64,000 bases of DNA from Gordonibacter urolithinfaciens (GTDB lineage: Bacteria > Actinomycetota > Coriobacteriia > Coriobacteriales > Eggerthellaceae), in the NCBI RefSeq assembly GCF_900199375.1, contig NZ_LT900217.1:1984001-2048000 (forward strand), read 5' to 3'. Made by a program: the position numbers and the translations under genes. The notes under the pieces were generated by a model, which was given only the letters and a program-made list of their open reading frames with translations, made no database searches and had not been told where the DNA came from. Shown one piece after another: positions 29,587 through 38,227 of this stretch. The first letter of the stretch is position 1, and each line of letters starts with the position of its first letter.

Positions 29587-29722
29587 GCCTCTTTCGCCCG
29601 CCCGACCGCCTTGTTTCCGCTGTGCAACGGTTCGCCTCCGCACCCGCGCGATGCCGCTGTCGCGTCCTACCCTGGTGCTCGATAGCGCAGGCAGGGCAAC
29701 CGATGAAGGCGAGGCGAGGCGG

Positions 29723-31865
29723 ATGGGCGGGCATGACGGCGAACACGAGGATGTGCGGGACGGCTCTTCCAGAAAGGACGCCTCCGGGGGCGGCATGGCG
29801 ATGCACGGGGCGAACCTCAAGCGGCGGTTCTTCGCGAGCCTCGTGCTCACGGTGCCCATCCTGCTGCTGTCCTCGCCCATGGGGATGGCGCTCCCCATCA
29901 CGCTCGCGTTCCCCGGCTCGGACTGGGTCGTGGCGGCGCTCGCCACGGTGCTGTTCGTCTACGGCGGCATGCCGTTTCTGCGCGGGGCGGCGGACGAGCT
30001 CAGGCGCCGCCAGCCCGCCATGATGACGCTCGTGGCGCTCGGCATCACCACGGCCTACGCCTACAGCATCTACGCCTTCGTCCAGCGCTCCGTCCTGCAT
30101 GCGGCGGGCATGCACATGGACTTCTTCTGGGAGCTGGCCACGCTCATCGTCATCATGCTCCTGGGCCACTGGGTGGAGATGCGGGCCGTCATGGGCGCGG
30201 GCGACGCGCTCAAGGAGATGGCCGAGCTCCTGCCGGCGCAGGCCCACGTGGAGCAGCCGGACGGCTCCTTCGCCGATGCGCCGCTGTCCGAGGTGCAGGT
30301 GGGGCAGACCGTCATGGTGGAGGCGGGCGAGAAGGTGCCCGCCGACGGCGAGGTCGTGCGCGGCGAGTCGCAGGTGAACGAGGCGCTCGTCACCGGCGAG
30401 GCGCGCGACGTGGCCAAGGGGGCAGGCGACTCCGTGTTCGGCGGATCGCAGAACGGCGACGGCACGCTGTACGTGCGCGTGACCGGCACGGGCGACTCGG
30501 GCTACCTTGCCCAGGTCATGAAGCTGGTGTCGCAGGCGCAGCAGGAGAAGTCGCGTGCCGAGGTGCTGTCGGACAAGGTGGCGCGCTGGCTGTTCTACGC
30601 CGCCGTGGGCGTGGGCGTCGCGGCCTTCGCCGCGTGGCTTGCCGTGACGGGCAGCGTGGGCGACGCGCTCACGCGCATGGTCACGGTGTTCGTCATCGCG
30701 TGCCCGCATGCGCTCGGCCTGGCCATACCGCTCGTGGCCGCGCGCTCCACGTCCATCGGCGCGCGGCACGGCCTGCTCGTGCGACGCCGACGGGCGCTCG
30801 AGGTGGCGCCGCGCGCGAACGTGGTGATGATGGACAAGACCGGCACGCTCACCGAGGGCGACTTCCGCGTGGCGGAGGTGCGTGCGGTGGGAAAGCCGGG
30901 CTCCGGCGACGGCAAGGGCGATAATGCCGGAGGGGCCGCCGGCATTATCGCCGGCAATGACGGGAAAAAACGGCGGCGCATCCGCCGACGACCGTGCCGA
31001 CGACCGCGTGCTCGCGATCCTCGCCGGGCTCGAGCAGTCCTCGTCGCATCCGCTCGCGGCGAGCATCGTGGCCGCCGCGCGCGACCGGGGCGTGCGCCCC
31101 GTGCCCGTGCGCGACGAGCACGCCGTGGCCGGCGTGGGCGTGGAGGGCACGCTCGAGGATGGGCGGAAGGCGCTCGTTGCGAACGCGCGCCACCTCGACG
31201 AGCGGCGCATCGTCTACGACCGCGGCCTGTTCCAGCAGCTCGCAGGCCGCGGCCTCACGGTGAGCTTCCTCGTGATCGACGGCGTCGTGGCCGGCGTGGT
31301 GGCCCAGGGCGACGAGGTGAAGCCCACGGCGCGCGAGGCGGTGCGGCAGCTCAAGGAGCGCGGCATCGCGCCCGTCATGCTCACGGGCGACAACGAGGAG
31401 GCCGCGCGCGCCGTGGCCCGCGACCTCGGGATCGACGAGTTCCACGCTGGGCTCGTGCCCCAGGACAAGGTGCGCCTCGTGCAGAAGCGCCGCACGGCGG
31501 GCGACGTGGTCATGATGGTGGGCGACGGCATCAACGACGCGCCCGCCCTCGCGAAGGCCGACGTGGGCGTGGCCATCGGCGCCGGCACCGACGTTGCCAT
31601 CGACTCCGCCGACGTCGTGCTCGTGAAGAGCGACCCGGAGGACATCGTGCGGCTGCTCGACCTGGGCACGAACACCACGCGCAAGATCAAGCAGAACCTC
31701 TGGTGGGGCGCCGGCTACAACATCGTGGCCATCCCGCTCGCAGCCGGCGTGCTGGCGCCGGTAGGCATCCTGCTGAGCCCCGCCGTGGGCGCCGTGCTCA
31801 TGAGCCTGTCCACCGTCATCGTGGCCGTGAACGCGATGACGCTCAAGGCCGGCGACGAGGGGTAG
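29723..31865 (+). pseudogene. copB: CopB-like P1B-type metal-transporting ATPase, interrupted by a frameshift
   Basis: The first part, read from the ATG at 29723, runs to about 30964. It has a His/Asp-rich N-terminus without an HMA domain, membrane segments, the TGEA actuator motif, the intramembrane CPH motif (VFVIACPHALGLAIP) typical of CopB-type (P1B-3) pumps, and MMDKTGTLTEG. The second part continues in the next frame to 31865 with EQSSSHPLAAS, MLTGDN, VGDGINDAPALAKAD and the last membrane pair. The break falls in an A6 run (30965-30970); removing one A joins the frames as ...NDGKNGGASADD.... Both halves look under normal selection, so this may be a recent indel, a sequencing error or slippage. 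Copper or silver export is a family inference. Confidence 0.85.
30919..30950 (+). other. perfect hairpin just before the copB frameshift
   Basis: CGATAATGCCGG (30919-30930) and CCGGCATTATCG (30939-30950) form a perfect 12-bp stem with an 8-nt loop, within coding sequence for a Gly/Ala-rich linker and 14 nt before the A6 tract where the frame breaks. Confidence 0.7.
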
Positions 31866-31982: not shown

Positions 31983-31998
31983 GTTATACGAAGCTAAC
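31983..31998. promoter_or_regulatory. GTTA-N8-TAAC box upstream of the first feoA
   Basis: GTTATACGAAGCTAAC ends two bases before the ATG at 32001 and overlaps a possible -10 (TATACG). The region 31911-32000 is strikingly AT-rich for this genome (also TTTGCTATAGAATACTTATT), as expected for a regulated promoter. The same 16-bp dyad pattern recurs before feoB and at 36134. Confidence 0.55.
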
Positions 31999-32000
31999 TG

Positions 32001-32354
32001 ATGGGAGCACAGATGGGCAATGCAACGGTAGCGGGCATGGGCGGGCAGGCGGGCGTGCAAGCCCGCGCGCATGCCGGTACGGGTATCGCATGCGCCGATG
32101 CGGACGCGGTTCCCAGCGCCTCGTGCCGACAGATGCCGCTTTCGTTCCTCGGGAGCGGCGAGACGGCCACGATAGCGAAGGTGCGCGGCAGGGGCGACCT
32201 GCACCACCACCTGGAGAACCTCGGGTTCGTGGAAGGAGCGCGCGTCACGGTGACGGCCGAGGCTGCGGGCGACCTTATCGTGGAAGTCAAGGGCACGCAG
32301 GTCGCGCTCAACAAGCAGATCGCGTCCCGTATCATCACGAACGCCGCCGCCTAG
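32001..32354 (+). CDS. feoA: FeoA-domain protein with N-terminal extension
   Basis: 117 aa from the ATG at 32001 (ATG 32013 is also possible). The first ~45 residues are Gly/Ala-rich and probably disordered. The rest is a FeoA SH3-like domain: MPLSFLGSGETATIAKVRGR, then LHHHLENLGFVEGARVTVTA and a closing VALNKQIASRIITNAA. FeoA is the small cytosolic partner of the FeoB ferrous iron transporter. A second, shorter feoA lies 365 bp downstream. The iron-type box at the promoter supports regulation by a DtxR-family protein. Confidence 0.88.
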   Translation: MGAQMGNATVAGMGGQAGVQARAHAGTGIACADADAVPSASCRQMPLSFLGSGETATIAKVRGRGDLHHHLENLGFVEGARVTVTAEAAGDLIVEVKGTQVALNKQIASRIITNAAA

Positions 32355-32718: not shown

Positions 32719-32961
32719 ATGACAGAAGGGCAGGGTAAGACGCTGCGCGACGTCGCCATCGGCGAGTCGGTCACGGTGCGCCGTCTGACGGGCGAGGGAG
32801 CCATCAAACGCCATATCATGGACATGGGCATCACGAAGGGCACGGACGTGTTCGTGCGCAAGGTGGCTCCGCTGGGCGATCCCATCGAGGTCACGGTGCG
32901 CGGCTACGAGCTTTCGCTGCGCAAGAGCGAGGCGGAGAACATTTTGGTTTCGTTGGCCTGA
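32719..32961 (+). CDS. feoA: FeoA, ferrous iron transport accessory protein
   Basis: 80 aa from the ATG at 32719 with a GAGGAAGAAAGG site; the 114 extra residues of the open frame would read through the parS site and are not a gene. It is a single FeoA SH3-like domain: LRDVAIGESVTVRRLTGEGA, IKRHIMDMGITKGTDVFVRK, VAPLGDPIEVTVRGYELSLR. This is the canonical short FeoA, more typical than the one at 32001. The pair probably has distinct partners or functions. Confidence 0.92.
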   Translation: MTEGQGKTLRDVAIGESVTVRRLTGEGAIKRHIMDMGITKGTDVFVRKVAPLGDPIEVTVRGYELSLRKSEAENILVSLA

Positions 32962-33158: not shown

Positions 33159-33174
33159 GTTAGTTACAGTTAAC
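33159..33174. promoter_or_regulatory. GTTA-N8-TAAC box upstream of feoB
   Basis: GTTAGTTACAGTTAAC, 145 bp before the feoB ATG, contains a possible -10 (TACAGT, 33165-33170) and follows a T6 run. Same 16-bp dyad as at 31983 and 36134. The 357-bp gap 32962-33318 around it shows no gene. Confidence 0.55.
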
Positions 33175-33318: not shown

Positions 33319-35670
33319 ATGGGAATTCGCATAGCGCTTGCCGGCAACCCGAACTGCGGCAAGACAACGATGTTCAACGACCTGACCGGCGCCTCGCAGT
33401 ACGTGGGCAACTGGCCGGGCGTGACGGTCGAGAAGAAGGAGGGCACCTACACGCGCGACAAGGACGTGACCATCACGGACCTGCCGGGCGTCTACTCGCT
33501 TTCGCCGTACTCGCCCGAGGAGGTCGTGACGCGCGACTACCTGCTCGACGGCCGCCCCGACGCGGTCATCAACCTCGTGGACGCCACGAACTTGGAGCGC
33601 AACCTCTACCTGACGACGCAGATCCTCGATCTGGGCTTGCCGGTAGTGGTGGCGCTGAACATGATGGACCTGGTGGAGAAGAACGGCGACAAGATCGACG
33701 TGGCCAAGCTCTCCAAGAAGCTGGGCTGCCCCGTAGTGGAGACCTCGGCGCTCAAGGGTCGCGGCATGGAGGACCTGCTGAAGACCGCCATCGACGCGGC
33801 GAAGAAGGGCACGCCGGCCGCGTCTGACCTGCGCTTCACCTCCGAGGTGGAAGAAGCGCTGGGCCGTGTCATCGACGTGCTGGGTACGCGCGTGACCCCG
33901 AACGTGGCGCGCTGGTACGCCATCAAGCTGCTGGAGGGCGAGCAGAAAACCATCGACAAGCTGGGCCTGCCTGCCGGTGACCTCTCGGCCGTTGCAAGCA
34001 TCCGCGAGGCGCTCGAGAACAGCCAAGACGACGACGCCGAGAGCATCATCACCGGCGAGCGCTACGACGCCATCGGCGACGTGGTGTCGGAGACGGTGAA
34101 GAAGTCGCTCAAAGGCGCCACCACCACGCAGAAGATCGACCGCGTGGTCACGAACCGCTGGCTCGGCATCCCCATCTTCATCGTCATCATGACGCTGGTG
34201 TACTACATCTCCGTATCCACCGTGGGCACGCTATTCACCGACTGGGCCAACGACGGCGTCTTCGGCGACGGCTGGCTCTACACCGGCACCGAGCAGTACG
34301 ACGAAGCGGTCGGCGTTTGGGAAGAGAACATGACAGCCGCCGAGGAAGCCGGCGCAAGCGAGAGCGAACTGGCACTCTTAGCCGAAGAGGAGCCCGATCC
34401 CGCAGAGTTCGGCTTCTACCTCCCAGGCCTCACCCCCGTGGCCACCGAGGCGCTGGAGTCCATCGGCACGGCGCCGTGGCTCACGAGCCTCGTCGTGGAC
34501 GGCATCATCGCCGGCGTGGGCGCGGTGCTCGGCTTCGTTCCCCAGATGATCGTGTTGTTCCTGTTGCTGTCCGTCCTGGAGGCCTGCGGGTATATGGCGC
34601 GCGTCGCGTTCATCATGGACCGTATCTTCCGCAAGTTCGGCCTGTCGGGCAAGAGCTTCATCCCCATGCTCATCGCGTCGGGCTGCGGCGTCCCCGCCGT
34701 CATGGCCACGAAAACCATTGAGAACGAGAAAGACCGTCGCATGACCATCATGACGACGACCATGATCCCCTGCGGCGCGAAGCTGCCCATCATCGCGCTC
34801 GTGTTCGGTGCCATCGCCGGCGGCGATGCGGGCACCACCTGGTGGATCGCGCCGGTGTTCTACTTCCTGGGCGTCATCGCTATCATCGTGTCCGGCATCA
34901 TGCTGCGCAAGACCAGGATGTTCGCCGGAGAGGCCACGCCGTTCATCATGGAGCTGCCGGCCTATCACGTGCCCGCCGTGAAGAACGTGGCCCTGGCCAC
35001 GTGGGAGCGCGTGAAGAGCTTCATCGTGAAGGCCGGCACGATTATCTTCCTGTCGTCCATCGTCATCTGGTTCCTCATGAACTTCGGCTTCTACGAAGGC
35101 GCGTTCGGCCTTCTCGACACGGAGATGGAAGACTACATCCAGTACAGCCTCATGGCCGGTCTGGGCAACGCGCTGGCGTGGGTGTTCGCGCCGCTTGGCT
35201 TCGGCAACTGGGAGTCCGCCGTCACGTCCATCACGGGCCTCGTGGCCAAGGAGAACGTCGTGGCCACGGTGGGCATCCTCACCAGCCTGGGAGACGCCGG
35301 CGAGGCCGATCCGTCCATGTGGATGGCGTTCGGCGCCCTCATGGGCGGCAGCGTGCCGGCGATCATGGCCTTCTGCGCCTTCAACCTGCTGTGCGCCCCG
35401 TGCTTCGCCGCTATCGGCACCATCCGTCGCCAGATGGCGAGCGCGAAGTGGACCTGGTTCGCCATCGGCTACATGACGGTGTTCGCGTGGGCCGTGGGCC
35501 TGATGATCAACCAGTTCGGCATGCTGCTGGGCGGTGGCGAGTTCAGCGTGTGGACTGCCGTGGCCGTCGTGGTGCTGGTGGGCATGCTGTTCCAGCTGTT
35601 CCGCCCCCTGCCCGAGTACAAGGACAAGGGCGGCGCGCCGCAGGCCGAGGCCGAGCAGGGTGTTGCGTAA
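33319..35670 (+). CDS. feoB: FeoB ferrous iron transporter
   Basis: 783 aa from the ATG at 33319 (MGIRIALAGNPNCGKTTMF, GAAAGG site); an upstream ATG at 33277 with an AAGGAAG site could add 14 residues. The N-terminal G domain has G1 GNPNCGKTT, G2 region NWPGVTVEKKEG, G3 DLPGVYSL and G4 NMMD. A helical domain follows, then the polytopic membrane domain with the two Gate regions (VLEACGYMARVAFIMDRIF; IMAFCAFNLLCAPCFAAIGT). A ~60-residue acidic insert (~340-400) lies between the first membrane helices. It takes up Fe(II) across the membrane with FeoA. A 17-bp perfect hairpin (35684-35720) follows the stop. Confidence 0.95.
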   Translation: MGIRIALAGNPNCGKTTMFNDLTGASQYVGNWPGVTVEKKEGTYTRDKDVTITDLPGVYSLSPYSPEEVVTRDYLLDGRPDAVINLVDATNLERNLYLTTQILDLGLPVVVALNMMDLVEKNGDKIDVAKLSKKLGCPVVETSALKGRGMEDLLKTAIDAAKKGTPAASDLRFTSEVEEALGRVIDVLGTRVTPNVARWYAIKLLEGEQKTIDKLGLPAGDLSAVASIREALENSQDDDAESIITGERYDAIGDVVSETVKKSLKGATTTQKIDRVVTNRWLGIPIFIVIMTLVYYISVSTVGTLFTDWANDGVFGDGWLYTGTEQYDEAVGVWEENMTAAEEAGASESELALLAEEEPDPAEFGFYLPGLTPVATEALESIGTAPWLTSLVVDGIIAGVGAVLGFVPQMIVLFLLLSVLEACGYMARVAFIMDRIFRKFGLSGKSFIPMLIASGCGVPAVMATKTIENEKDRRMTIMTTTMIPCGAKLPIIALVFGAIAGGDAGTTWWIAPVFYFLGVIAIIVSGIMLRKTRMFAGEATPFIMELPAYHVPAVKNVALATWERVKSFIVKAGTIIFLSSIVIWFLMNFGFYEGAFGLLDTEMEDYIQYSLMAGLGNALAWVFAPLGFGNWESAVTSITGLVAKENVVATVGILTSLGDAGEADPSMWMAFGALMGGSVPAIMAFCAFNLLCAPCFAAIGTIRRQMASAKWTWFAIGYMTVFAWAVGLMINQFGMLLGGGEFSVWTAVAVVVLVGMLFQLFRPLPEYKDKGGAPQAEAEQGVA

Positions 35671-35683
35671 GGCTCCTGCAGGA

Positions 35684-35720
35684 ACCGAACGGCGGGCGCA
35701 TCCTGCGCCCGCCGTTCGGT
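35684..35720 (+). terminator. strong hairpin after feoB without T tract
   Basis: ACCGAACGGCGGGCGCA and its exact complement TGCGCCCGCCGTTCGGT form a 17-bp stem with a 3-nt loop. No U run follows, so it may act as an mRNA 3' stabiliser or partial terminator rather than a classical one. Confidence 0.5.
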
Positions 35721-35814
35721 GCGTTCGGACGCGAGCGCGTGAGGATATTTCTCGCGAATCATCTGTGCGAAAAGCAATGCGCCGGAAAGCGGCGCCGTGG
35801 AAAGGAGGCGGCTC

Positions 35815-36054
35815 GTGCTGCCATTGGAGATAAGTCCGGCAACCGTCATCATCGGCCTTGTTATCGTGGTGTTGGCCGTGCTAGCCGTGCGACGCCTGGT
35901 GCGCCGCGGCACCTGCGACTGCCACGACCACGGAGGAGGCCCGGCGAAGGGCGGCTGCGCGGCAGGAGGCTGCGCTGGGTGCACCGGGTGCGGAGTCGCA
36001 GATGCCCTGGTCGCCGACATTGAGCGCGCCGCCAAGCAGGGAAGCGCTCGGTAG
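35815..36054 (+). CDS. FeoB-associated Cys-rich membrane peptide
   Basis: 79 aa from the GTG at 35815, six bases after AAAGGAGG (35801-35808); the GTG at 35797 is less likely. One membrane helix (TVIIGLVIVVLAVLAVRRLV) is followed by a cytoplasmic Cys cluster (CDCHDH, then GGCAAGGCAGCTGCG, seven Cys in all). This layout matches the short FeoB-associated Cys-rich proteins (PF12669 type) found after feoB in anaerobes. A role as an iron or redox accessory of FeoB is inferred from position. Confidence 0.78.
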   Translation: MLPLEISPATVIIGLVIVVLAVLAVRRLVRRGTCDCHDHGGGPAKGGCAAGGCAGCTGCGVADALVADIERAAKQGSAR

Positions 36055-36117
36055 GCGCTCGGCAGGCGCAGGGAAATCCAATATATGGAGGAATTGTAAA
36101 CCAAGGAAAACTTTGCC

Positions 36118-36149
36118 TTGACCATACGTGTAAGTTAGCATAGACTAAC
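36118..36149 (+). promoter_or_regulatory. promoter with GTTA-N8-TAAC box, not followed by a gene
   Basis: A -35 box TTGACC (36118-36123), a 17-bp spacer and a -10 box TAGACT (36141-36146) form one of the best promoters in the window. The 16-bp dyad GTTAGCATAGACTAAC (36134-36149) covers the -10 and is the third copy of the box found before feoA and feoB. The first coding sequence downstream starts 400 bp away. Confidence 0.6.
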
Positions 36150-36152
36150 AAA

Positions 36153-36330
36153 TGTCAGAAAGCGACAGCGAAACTTTCCCGGCGCAAGGCAGGCGCCAAA
36201 GGGGAAGGCTCGAGCTCTCTGCCTCCTCTTCTTGCTGACACGGCGGCGAAGGCTCCTCTCGTCTGGTCATTCGCCGCACAGCATCGCCGACGGGGGATCC
36301 CCCCCTCTTCCCCCGTCGGCACTCCTCCCT
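36153..36330 (+). ncRNA. candidate iron-responsive small RNA
   Basis: The stretch follows the iron-box promoter at 36118-36149 and holds no credible gene. Its first stem pairs CTTTCCC/GGGGAAG and GGCGC/GCGCC (36174-36207, AAA bulge, 7-nt loop). A C/U-rich, probably single-stranded part (GCCTCCTCTTCTTGCTG, around 36221-36237) could pair with Shine-Dalgarno sequences. The last stem is a perfect 11-bp hairpin, GCCGACGGGGG/CCCCCGTCGGC (36286-36320). C-rich loops are a trait of iron-sparing sRNAs such as FsrA. No T run follows the last stem, so the 3' end is uncertain; the transcript might instead be a long leader of the regulator gene. Beyond it, 36331-36551 shows nothing but the regulator's promoter region. 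Confidence 0.35.
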
Positions 36331-36551
36331 TTCAGCCTCTTCTCATCTTCGCCTTCGGCGTTCTCTCGGATCTGCGTTTTCCTGTGGCAGGCTGTCAAAC
36401 TTCGCGGCCCACCGTTTCGAGTGCGACCGGCCGCGACACTTTCTGCCTCCCGGCGTGCAACGCTCGGGGACTACCGGGGGGGGGCTGATGCCGCCCTTTC
36501 GGAGGGGGCGAGGGGTGTGGTACCATGGGCGAGGCGCGAAGGAGGGTTCCT

Positions 36552-36932
36552 GTGGAAAAAATGTCCATGTCGCACGAAGATTATCTCGAGGCCATCGTCA
36601 TGTTGGGCGGTACGACGGAGGCGTCGGTCCGTTCGGTCGACATCGCGACGAAGCTCGGCGTGTCCAAAGCGTCGGTCAACAAGGCCGTGACGTCCCTGAA
36701 GGAGAAGGGCCTGGCCGACCAGCCGTACTACGGCGACATCACGCTTACCGAAGAGGGCTACGCCTATGGAACGTCGGTGCTCGACCGCCATCACATGCTG
36801 TTCTCGTTCCTCACGAAGGCCCTCGGCATTCCCGAGGAGCAAGCCGAGCGCGAGGCGTGCCTCATGGAGCATGCCATCAGCGACGAGTCGTTCGAAAAAT
36901 GGAGTTCTTATATTAAGAAGCTCGATCTCTAG
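36552..36932 (+). CDS. DtxR-family metal-dependent repressor (short form)
   Basis: 126 aa from the GTG at 36552, six bases after AAGGAGGG; the ATG at 36525 would lie in the leader and has no site. The N-terminal winged helix (SHEDYLEAIVMLGGTTEASV, DIATKLGVSKASVNKAVTSL) and the dimer/metal domain (ITLTEEGYAYGTSVLDRHHM, then EREACLMEHAISDE with the usual E-x-x-x-x-E/H ligands) match DtxR/MntR. The C-terminal SH3-like domain is absent, as in MntR. It is the likely reader of the GTTA-N8-TAAC boxes around the feo genes. A TACCAT -10 lies at 36521. Confidence 0.9.
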   Translation: MEKMSMSHEDYLEAIVMLGGTTEASVRSVDIATKLGVSKASVNKAVTSLKEKGLADQPYYGDITLTEEGYAYGTSVLDRHHMLFSFLTKALGIPEEQAEREACLMEHAISDESFEKWSSYIKKLDL

Positions 36933-36940
36933 CCCTTGAG

Positions 36941-36966
36941 AACGCCGCCCTCGAGCGGCGTTTTTT
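36941..36966 (+). terminator. intrinsic terminator after the DtxR-family gene
   Basis: AACGCCGC (36941-36948) and GCGGCGTT (36955-36962) form a tight stem with a 6-nt loop, running into six T (36961-36966). Classical rho-independent terminator, 8 bp after the stop. Confidence 0.9.
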
Positions 36967-37129
36967 ACGGTTTCACCCGCGCTTCGGGCCGCGATTCAAC
37001 GGTTTCTCAACGGGCCGGCTGTGCGCCTGCGTCCGGTGGCGGGGCCCCTGCTTCTGTGGTATCCTTGAGCAAGCTTCTGGCATTACACCCACCATCAACG
37101 AACCACGATGCTAAGAGGAGCGCACTCCA

Positions 37130-38227
37130 TTGGGCAACCAGGCGAATATACTTTCGTTTGACGAGGTGAAACGCGATTCGGGCGCAAGGCGCTCGTCTGT
37201 CGCTGCGCCTTTGCGGCCCTCGCGGAGGCGCCCTGCCGGCAGCGTGGAGCAGGGCGTTTCCGCATCGGTGCGCCCGGCCGGGCGCGCGGGCGCCTCTGCC
37301 CGTTACGCGGCCTCGCGGCCCCTCTCGGATGCCGCGCGCATCTCCGGCACCGCACCGCGCACGGCTTCCCTCGCAAATCCTGCCCGGCCGCGTTCTATCG
37401 TCGATGATTTCCCCGCCTCCTCGGCGCGGGCCGCCGTTACCGCGTACGCCGACCGCGGTTCCCGCATCGAACCTGCCGGCACCGCGCCGCGCCGTCGCCG
37501 GGGCGCCCATGCCAGGCAATCCTTCGTCGACCTCGACGAGCCCGACGAGCGTTCCGCTGATCGCGGCGAGGCGGAGGACGAAGCCCCCGATAAGCGCTCG
37601 CGCCTGCAGGAGTTCCGCCGCAGGCGCCAGAAGGACCGTGCCGACAAGAAGTTCGACAAGCAGTTCGGCGGCAGCCGCGCAACCGATGCGCCGGCCGCGG
37701 GATCGCGCGCGGCCGTGTACAAGGGCGAGATGGGCTCCAACCACAAGCGCGCCGCGCGCATGCAGAACGACGCAGCCGGCAAGGCGCGCACGTTCTCGCT
37801 CGCATCGCTCAACCCGCTCGCACTGCTCTCCTCGGGAAAACAGTCGCCGAAGGCCATCGCCGGCCTCGGTTTTGTCGCCTGCCTTCTGCTCACGTGCTGG
37901 TTTTTGTACACTCCGACGCAGCAGCTGTACCACTCGGTGCGCGAGCACGACCGGCTCCAAGCGGAGTACGCGGCCATCGAGCAGCGCAACGCCTCGCTCG
38001 AGTCCGAGGTGGGCACGCTGCAGACGGACGCCGGCATCGAGGACCGCGCGCACGAGCAGTTCGGCTGGGTGCCGGAGGGCGAGCAGACCGCCAACGTGCA
38101 CGGCCTTGCCGCCGACGCCGGCAACGACGAGGGCTCGAACTTCACGGCGAACATCGTGGTCGGCAGCGTGGAGGCGCCCGAGACGTGGTACTCGCCGGTG
38201 CTCGACGCCCTATTCGGCGTGAAATAG
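37130..38227 (+). CDS. FtsB/DivIC-like septum formation initiator with long basic N-terminus
   Basis: 365 aa from a TTG at 37130 (site AAGAGGAG, 37113-37120); no ATG is available near it. Residues ~1-240 are polar, Arg/Ala-rich and probably disordered in the cytoplasm. One membrane helix (AIAGLGFVACLLLTCWFLYT) is followed by a coiled coil (LYHSVREHDRLQAEYAAIEQ, RNASLESEVGTLQ) and a short outer domain (ARAHEQFGWV-like). This is the FtsB/DivIC pattern of the divisome FtsQ-B-L complex; the long N-terminal extension is unusual outside actinobacteria. It is followed by ppx, the common actinobacterial order. Confidence 0.8.
   Translation: MGNQANILSFDEVKRDSGARRSSVAAPLRPSRRRPAGSVEQGVSASVRPAGRAGASARYAASRPLSDAARISGTAPRTASLANPARPRSIVDDFPASSARAAVTAYADRGSRIEPAGTAPRRRRGAHARQSFVDLDEPDERSADRGEAEDEAPDKRSRLQEFRRRRQKDRADKKFDKQFGGSRATDAPAAGSRAAVYKGEMGSNHKRAARMQNDAAGKARTFSLASLNPLALLSSGKQSPKAIAGLGFVACLLLTCWFLYTPTQQLYHSVREHDRLQAEYAAIEQRNASLESEVGTLQTDAGIEDRAHEQFGWVPEGEQTANVHGLAADAGNDEGSNFTANIVVGSVEAPETWYSPVLDALFGVK

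Follow-up and report, generated by a model that had tools for sequence, protein, structure and literature searches.

The DNA between the feo genes of Gordonibacter urolithinfaciens and a short metal-dependent repressor gene poses a simple question: does it encode a discrete, iron-controlled small RNA, or is it merely the leader of the repressor gene? An earlier note on this locus had proposed an iron-sparing sRNA there, made from a near-consensus promoter under an iron-type operator. We analysed the locus within a 64-kb window (the whole stretch of DNA examined, part of the complete 3.29-Mb genome), together with its counterparts in related genomes. The nearest relative found by DNA search, genome G002, is 94% identical across the region. 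Table 1 collects the features discussed below.

Table 1. Features of the feo-sRNA-repressor region and loci of the sister RNA type
Feature	Position or location	Strand	Remarks
Box GTTATACGAAGCTAAC before feoA	31983..31998	+	
feoA genes	32001-32354 and 32719-32961		
Box GTTAGTTACAGTTAAC before feoB	33159..33174	+	
feoB	33319..35670	+	
Conserved upstream element TATGGAGGAATTGTAAAC	36084..36101	+	
Promoter TTGACC-17-TAGACT	36118..36146	+	TTGACC 36118-36123, TAGACT 36141-36146
Operator box GTTAGCATAGACTAAC, DtxR-type dyad covering the -10	36134..36149	+	predicted site
Proposed sRNA, copy A	36153..36332	+	3′ end about 36320-36332; ends predicted
C/U-rich stretch CCUCCUCUUCUU	36222..36233	+	could pair with Shine-Dalgarno; predicted unpaired 0.36-0.84
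Hairpin P2, covarying stem	36243..36277	+	
P2 loop CUCCUCUCGUCUGG	36253-36266		most conserved C/U-rich single strand
Seed UCUCGUCU in P2 loop	36257..36264	+	predicted unpaired 0.89-1.0 in copy A
Hairpin P3, terminator-like, C/U-rich loop	36286..36320	+	
Extended -10 TGGTACCAT of regulator gene	36518..36526	+	
DtxR/MntR-like metal-dependent repressor, short form	36552..36932	+	PF01325 and PF02742 above cut-off
Sister RNA loci L451-L456, L459, L460	genomes G103, G070, G023, G091, G028, G033, G005, G075		

The structured unit and its family

The gene order is feoA, feoA, feoB, a small Cys-rich gene that matched nothing in Pfam, the sRNA unit and the repressor gene. The repressor, for which we chose the GTG at 36552 as start codon, has MntR as its top NCBIfam match, at a score under the cut-off of that family; we propose it as the controller of the operator box. 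Between 36153 and 36517 we found no convincing gene, the open reading frames there being, in our judgement, antisense or overlapping the structure, which agrees with the earlier description of some 180 nt without a gene. Further upstream, the frame of a P-type ATPase (29651-31865) appears by eye to change near 30.9-31.0 kb, where two open reading frames overlap; this is either a frameshift, a pseudogene or a sequencing error.

The promoter described earlier is indeed there, and it is the only sigma-70-like site in 35500-37500, where shuffled sequences average 0.3; the transcript is predicted to start at about 36153. The gene-free structured unit measures about 170-180 nt. RNA 36153-36330 folds at -78.1 kcal/mol (z = -3.47; none of 200 shuffles was equally stable); when the segment is extended to 36545, the fold is no longer unusual (z = -1.41). 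The two strong stems noted previously correspond to P2 and P3, both of which covary. The C/U-rich single strands are real as well, but the most conserved of them is the P2 loop rather than the CCTCCTC at 36222 that had been singled out. In 43 of the 74 copies, CCTC or TCCTC is found no more than 25 nt ahead of the core. At least five of 8 nt after P3 are T in 23 of 74 copies, the best 8 nt in copy A holding three. We discarded a long-range UGUCAG/CUGACA helix that the eye picks out in copy A, since many relatives do not have it.

In a DNA search, 12 of 60 relatives gave a match, and a second, paralogous copy came to light in the Gordonibacter genome itself at 2791805-2791882, with its own box GTTAGCTTAATCTAAC. 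An alignment and covariance model built from 18 copies found the element in 54 of the 119 family genomes searched, spread over 23 of 48 genera, and, in a class-wide draw, in 12 of 149 genomes, all of the same family; both genome counts are lower bounds, stricter filters having been applied above 40 genomes. We fetched 74 matches with their flanks (model matches plus loci from the DNA search), 67 of them distinct. Across these 67 copies, 99.1% of pair cells hold standard pairs, and 17 of the 18 pairs have changed on both sides. Covariation scores 0.673, compared with 0.272 for 500 shuffles and no more than 0.162 when the partners are slid; the alignment was fitted to the model and so favours structure. 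An earlier, sequence-only alignment had double changes in 12 of the 18 pairs. The covariance check of the two stems that had been called for in related species thus came out in favour of the structure. A scan of the 64-kb window against Rfam 15 at gathering score returned tRNA only, and 13 loci, the paralogue, relatives and the sister type included, matched no Rfam 15 family; at E up to 5 there were three weak matches, far under their cut-offs. Viral contigs held no exact match to the core pattern. The unit appears to belong to a conserved RNA family absent from Rfam 15.

The operator is conserved along with the RNA. GTTA-N8-TAAC matches the window in only three places, before feoA, before feoB and at the sRNA promoter, even when one mismatch is allowed. 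Three boxes are not a significant number (1.73 expected; 27 of 100 shuffles reach three); the telling point is their placement rather than their count. Genome-wide, the exact box occurs in 11 places, versus two for the reversed pattern, and four of the 11 are feoA, feoB and both sRNA copies. Searching 240 nt upstream of each of the 74 copies, we found 65 in which the box (at most one mismatch) holds TAnnnT at a constant place and is preceded by TTG, 16-18 nt from the -10, a combination that never arose in 20 shuffle rounds of all 74. Seven more copies have box and -10, three of them without the TTG and four at a distance of 231-462 nt. The box over the promoter, part of the original claim and putatively the site of an iron-responsive repressor, is thereby confirmed as a sequence feature: its dyad spans the -10, and a box carrying a -10 is kept in 72 of 74 copies, L126 and L132 being the two in which none is clear. 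The consensus of the element upstream, TGTGGAGAAATTGTAAAC, recurs at up to five mismatches in 55 of 69 boxed copies, versus 4 of 345 shuffles; it is perhaps a second regulator site. In many copies this element extends into a dyad resembling GTAAACCATGGTTAAC, which might serve as another operator.

Some species hold several copies per genome, which would also fit a dispersed repeat or DNA element devoid of RNA function. The covariation, the coupling to an operator-promoter and a loop seed found in nearly every copy (see below) make that reading hardly credible.

A separate RNA or a regulator leader

The position of the unit before a DtxR/MntR-like gene suggests another possibility, namely, that it is a cis-acting 5′ leader of this gene, an attenuator or riboswitch with P3 as terminator. 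Of the 74 copies, 38 have a regulator gene in the same orientation less than 400 nt downstream, and the more distant regulators beside type-B copies (six loci) have no visible promoter of their own. A riboswitch or attenuator would always sit upstream of the gene that it controls and be transcribed together with it, but in the remaining copies what comes next is an opposite-strand gene (14 of 74), another same-strand gene (17) or no called gene (5), by gene calls that are rough and based on codon usage. Moreover, after P3, 30 of the 38 regulator genes have an extended -10 of their own, TGnTAnnnT, about 40-70 nt before the start codon by our estimate; the count is a raw one, and a five-base word of this kind is expected in roughly one leader in ten by chance. 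Besides the six type-B loci, it is absent only at L100 and L115. Pyrimidines dominate the conserved unpaired segments, which match a motif that precedes unrelated genes, and this is likewise at odds with a leader.

Since most of the neighbouring regulators possess their own extended -10 and an opposite-strand gene follows in 14 copies, an ordinary leader, the outcome named in the earlier note as fatal to its proposal, is unlikely. The unit is also found at sites distant from any regulator gene, and this genome holds a paralogue of it. The U-tract of copy A is weak, and transcription could therefore continue into the regulator. We conclude that the unit probably specifies a separate RNA and that some read-through may occur in copy A and next to type-B regulators.

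Two side observations concern this neighbourhood. A TGTGGTA-type extended -10 is present both at 36518-36526 (regulator gene) and at 37055-37065, before a DivIC-like gene; it is perhaps a common promoter form in Gordonibacter. Four type-B copies (L021, L087, L090 and L092) precede a second feo cluster, in the last three of which one single frame matches FeoA and then FeoB.

The loop seed and the leaders of iron-enzyme genes

The seed word CTCGTCT is shared by 73 of the 74 copies. PF04879 matches number 54 in this genome, and we compared the 35 nt before 50 of these 54 molybdopterin Fe4S4 genes with the 30 nt upstream of 250 non-iron genes, called in the window and in 400 kb of this genome; the unequal lengths favour the molybdoenzymes slightly, and start codons were chosen partly by Shine-Dalgarno strength, under rules that differed slightly between the two sets. 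Among the 101 six-letter words found in at least three molybdoenzyme leaders, the top ones overlap into AGACGAGAGAGGAG, close to the loop complement. GAGGAG occurs in 22 of 50 molybdoenzyme versus 17 of 250 non-iron leaders, ACGAGA in 11 versus 6, GACGAG in 11 versus 11, and words outside the Shine-Dalgarno part in 20 versus 18. The molybdoenzyme contrast is attained in 2.1% of trials with shuffled purine-rich decoys, and in 7% in another decoy test. The leaders of 30 Fer4_11 genes lack the motif altogether. In Eggerthella sinensis (G035; 30 of 54 such genes), GACGAG precedes 16 of 30 and AGACGA 11 of 30, and in both genomes GACGAG is the commonest of its 60 permutations. Molybdoenzyme genes are paralogues, so these counts are not independent; by eye, the rest of their leaders differ. 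A small non-iron background in E. sinensis has GACGAG in 7 of 33 leaders (p 0.008 versus 16 of 30); five of these seven genes we take to be molybdoenzymes missed by the motif filter, which would leave 2 of 28.

A 15-nt loop complement with up to three mismatches shows no genome-wide excess (115 matches versus 126 for the reversed sequence; contexts read for 30 loci). The energy of P2-loop duplexes does not separate iron from non-iron leaders either, at p 0.25 with a biased background that included pattern-chosen loci and at p 0.40 in the test that replaced it; complementarity to the start regions of iron-protein mRNAs is present as predicted pairing, with duplex energy tests that are not significant. 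In the replacement test, other C/U segments do separate the two groups (p 0.009-0.05), which proves little because the iron genes in it also had stronger Shine-Dalgarno sequences (p 0.008). PF00196 genes, meant as a control, were left out, starts having been placed for 18 of 30. The earlier suggestion of target prediction from a C/U loop is supported by the enrichment of a complementary motif before iron-enzyme starts; the conserved seed is CUCGUCU of the P2 loop and not CCTCCTC.

The distribution of the full target pattern points in the same direction. AGACGAG followed by a Shine-Dalgarno core and ATG is found 96 times, versus 11 for the reversed pattern, in eight model-positive genomes and 20 versus 18 times in five genomes of other families, four of them without a model match and one (G036) negative in the DNA search only. 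Three genomes of the same family that have no model match (G005, G023 and G033), counted in neither group, have 9 matches versus 5 reversed. In this genome, 4 of 10 matches precede clear iron proteins (the NiFe hydrogenase small subunit, nigerythrin, a ferredoxin and a molybdoenzyme), and the other six a LysR regulator, a flavoprotein, a repeat protein and three short or unidentified frames. Of the 17 matches in E. sinensis, 10 stand, by coordinates, just before molybdopterin Fe4S4 genes; the other seven precede genes for a rubrerythrin-type protein, the hydrogenase, a SufC-like ATPase, a nitrate-reductase-gamma-like subunit, RodA, an ArsC-family protein and one protein without a Pfam match. 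The 11 matches fetched of 14 in G007 precede genes for a hydrogenase, a rubrerythrin-type protein, MoaA, a cytochrome c, two molybdoenzymes, a SufC-like ATPase, glutamine synthetase and three unrelated or unidentified proteins, and the 10 fetched of 13 in G097 those for three molybdoenzymes, a rubrerythrin-type protein, a hydrogenase, a ferredoxin, a SufC-like protein and three non-iron proteins; SufC and Cgr1 scores were under their NCBIfam cut-offs. The hydrogenase leader is present, as matched sequence, in all eight carriers, with the protein checked in four. Ferredoxin and nigerythrin leaders retain AGACGAG but vary in the sequence 5′ of it; in hydrogenase and SufC-like leaders, conservation extends beyond AGACGAG. 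In hydrogenase small-subunit leaders (L404, L410, L413, L429 and L380), GCACCTGAGGAGGTGTGC stands just after AGACGAG and could fold over the leader's own Shine-Dalgarno sequence.

Three of the 9 matches in G005, G023 and G033 turned out to be the antisense of another element, with a TTGAC promoter, a DtxR-type box, a hairpin with loop CACCTCCTTCTCGTCTG and then a second hairpin. A class-wide pattern search of 296 genomes, with one mismatch allowed, gave 25 matches, of which 8 have an upstream box and are all in the family and 17 have none. The RNA of these 8 genomes has loop ACCTCCTTCTCGTCTG, DtxR-type boxes and the following hairpin, in a structure unlike that of the main type. In L454, its stem CATGC/GCATG appears as CATAC/GTATG, the change being compensatory. 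The boxes of the sister type read TTAGG...CCTAA, which we take to be the DtxR/IdeR consensus. The case for CUCGUCU as the working part is strengthened, since the same seed recurs in a different RNA.

These observations raise the possibility that one seed, common to the paralogous iron-repressed RNAs and to the sister type, governs much of the repertoire of iron-sulfur molybdoenzymes in Eggerthellaceae, a proposal that we make tentatively, at somewhat short of an even chance. Iron-sulfur molybdoenzymes include catechol dehydroxylases and drug reductases. If the proposal is true, iron supply would gate, after transcription, the enzymes with which gut bacteria reduce drugs and dietary polyphenols, and one seed-matching leader motif would have been retained before dozens of enzyme genes.

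Proposed mechanism and known iron-sparing RNAs

Taken together, the promoter, the box, the covarying structure, the conservation, the predicted exposure of the seed and the enrichment of its complement, all read from DNA, lead to our best reading. The segment from 36153 to about 36332 is, with high probability, a discrete, DtxR-type-repressed, trans-acting iron-sparing sRNA, one of two paralogous copies. Its transcription, the metal sensed, the identity of the repressor, pairing in the cell and the sign of regulation are what we infer from these features. With iron present, a DtxR-type repressor, probably the product of the neighbouring gene, would occupy the box over the -10 and keep the promoter off; when iron falls, the RNA would be made. 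Hairpin P2 would then display UCUCGUCU for pairing with AGACGAG(A), some 15-25 nt ahead of the start codons in iron-protein mRNAs, and other C/U-rich stretches could pair with the Shine-Dalgarno sequences of the same mRNAs. Ribosome binding would thus be blocked and iron spared. The interpretation offered in the earlier note is supported, its computable predictions (covariation, operator-promoter, paralogue, regulator -10 and loop complement) having held.

The repressor resembles MntR as much as DtxR and, therefore, the metal could be manganese. A discrete sRNA under a manganese-sensing repressor, acting in manganese rather than iron control, would suit the top, sub-cut-off NCBIfam match of the regulator. 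However, the box precedes feoA and feoB too, the predicted targets are iron proteins and the sister-type boxes read as the DtxR/IdeR consensus, so that we regard manganese control as quite improbable. Coriobacteriia of the gut are rich in iron-sulfur molybdoenzymes, and an RNA linking iron to that repertoire would make iron-dependent drug and polyphenol metabolism directly testable.

Iron-sparing sRNAs have been described for Proteobacteria, Bacillus, Staphylococcus and mycobacteria, according to two sources (PMC9410917, PMC8628891). Our search of the open-licence full-text literature found none for Coriobacteriia. According to PMC9410917, IsrR of Staphylococcus resembles what is predicted here in being repressor-controlled, in presenting several single-stranded C-rich regions in hairpin loops, in having a terminator hairpin and in acting at the ribosome binding site of mRNAs for iron-sulfur enzymes, including the molybdoenzymes narG and fdhA. 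Unlike the predicted Gordonibacter RNA, it is Fur-controlled and proven experimentally; sequence and structure appear to differ and synteny is not shared. Within the actinobacteria, MrsI of Mycobacterium (PMC8628891) is an sRNA of about 100 nt with an IdeR (DtxR family) box in its promoter and a short seed, and represses iron proteins, much as predicted for the Gordonibacter RNA; its own features, compared here by description, are a six-nucleotide seed, the targets hypF, bfrA and fprA and another locus. FsrA of Bacillus subtilis, according to PMC9410917, is iron-sparing and pairs with Shine-Dalgarno sequences through a C-rich motif, but it is Fur-controlled and aided by FbpABC, whereas the Gordonibacter seed would reach past the Shine-Dalgarno to AGACGAG; this comparison, too, is by description. 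RyhB and PrrF1-PrrF2 share the iron-sparing logic and, in some species, duplicated copies, but, according to PMC9410917, are Fur and Hfq systems at an unrelated locus, and the Gordonibacter RNA has no Rfam match. The 6C sRNA of Actinobacteria has, according to PMC8628891, two hairpins with C-rich loops that bind mRNAs; the Gordonibacter loop is CUCGUCU rather than six C, its promoter is predicted to be operator-controlled and, again, Rfam returns no match. Covariance models accordingly assigned the RNA neither to RyhB or 6C nor to any other family modelled in Rfam 15.

The proposed sRNA family is absent from Rfam 15 and from the open literature searched. On our best reading, with likeness judged by description, the RNA works like IsrR, FsrA, MrsI or RyhB. 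If real, it would represent a further case of the same regulatory solution, in which both the seed and the target motif can be read from sequence.
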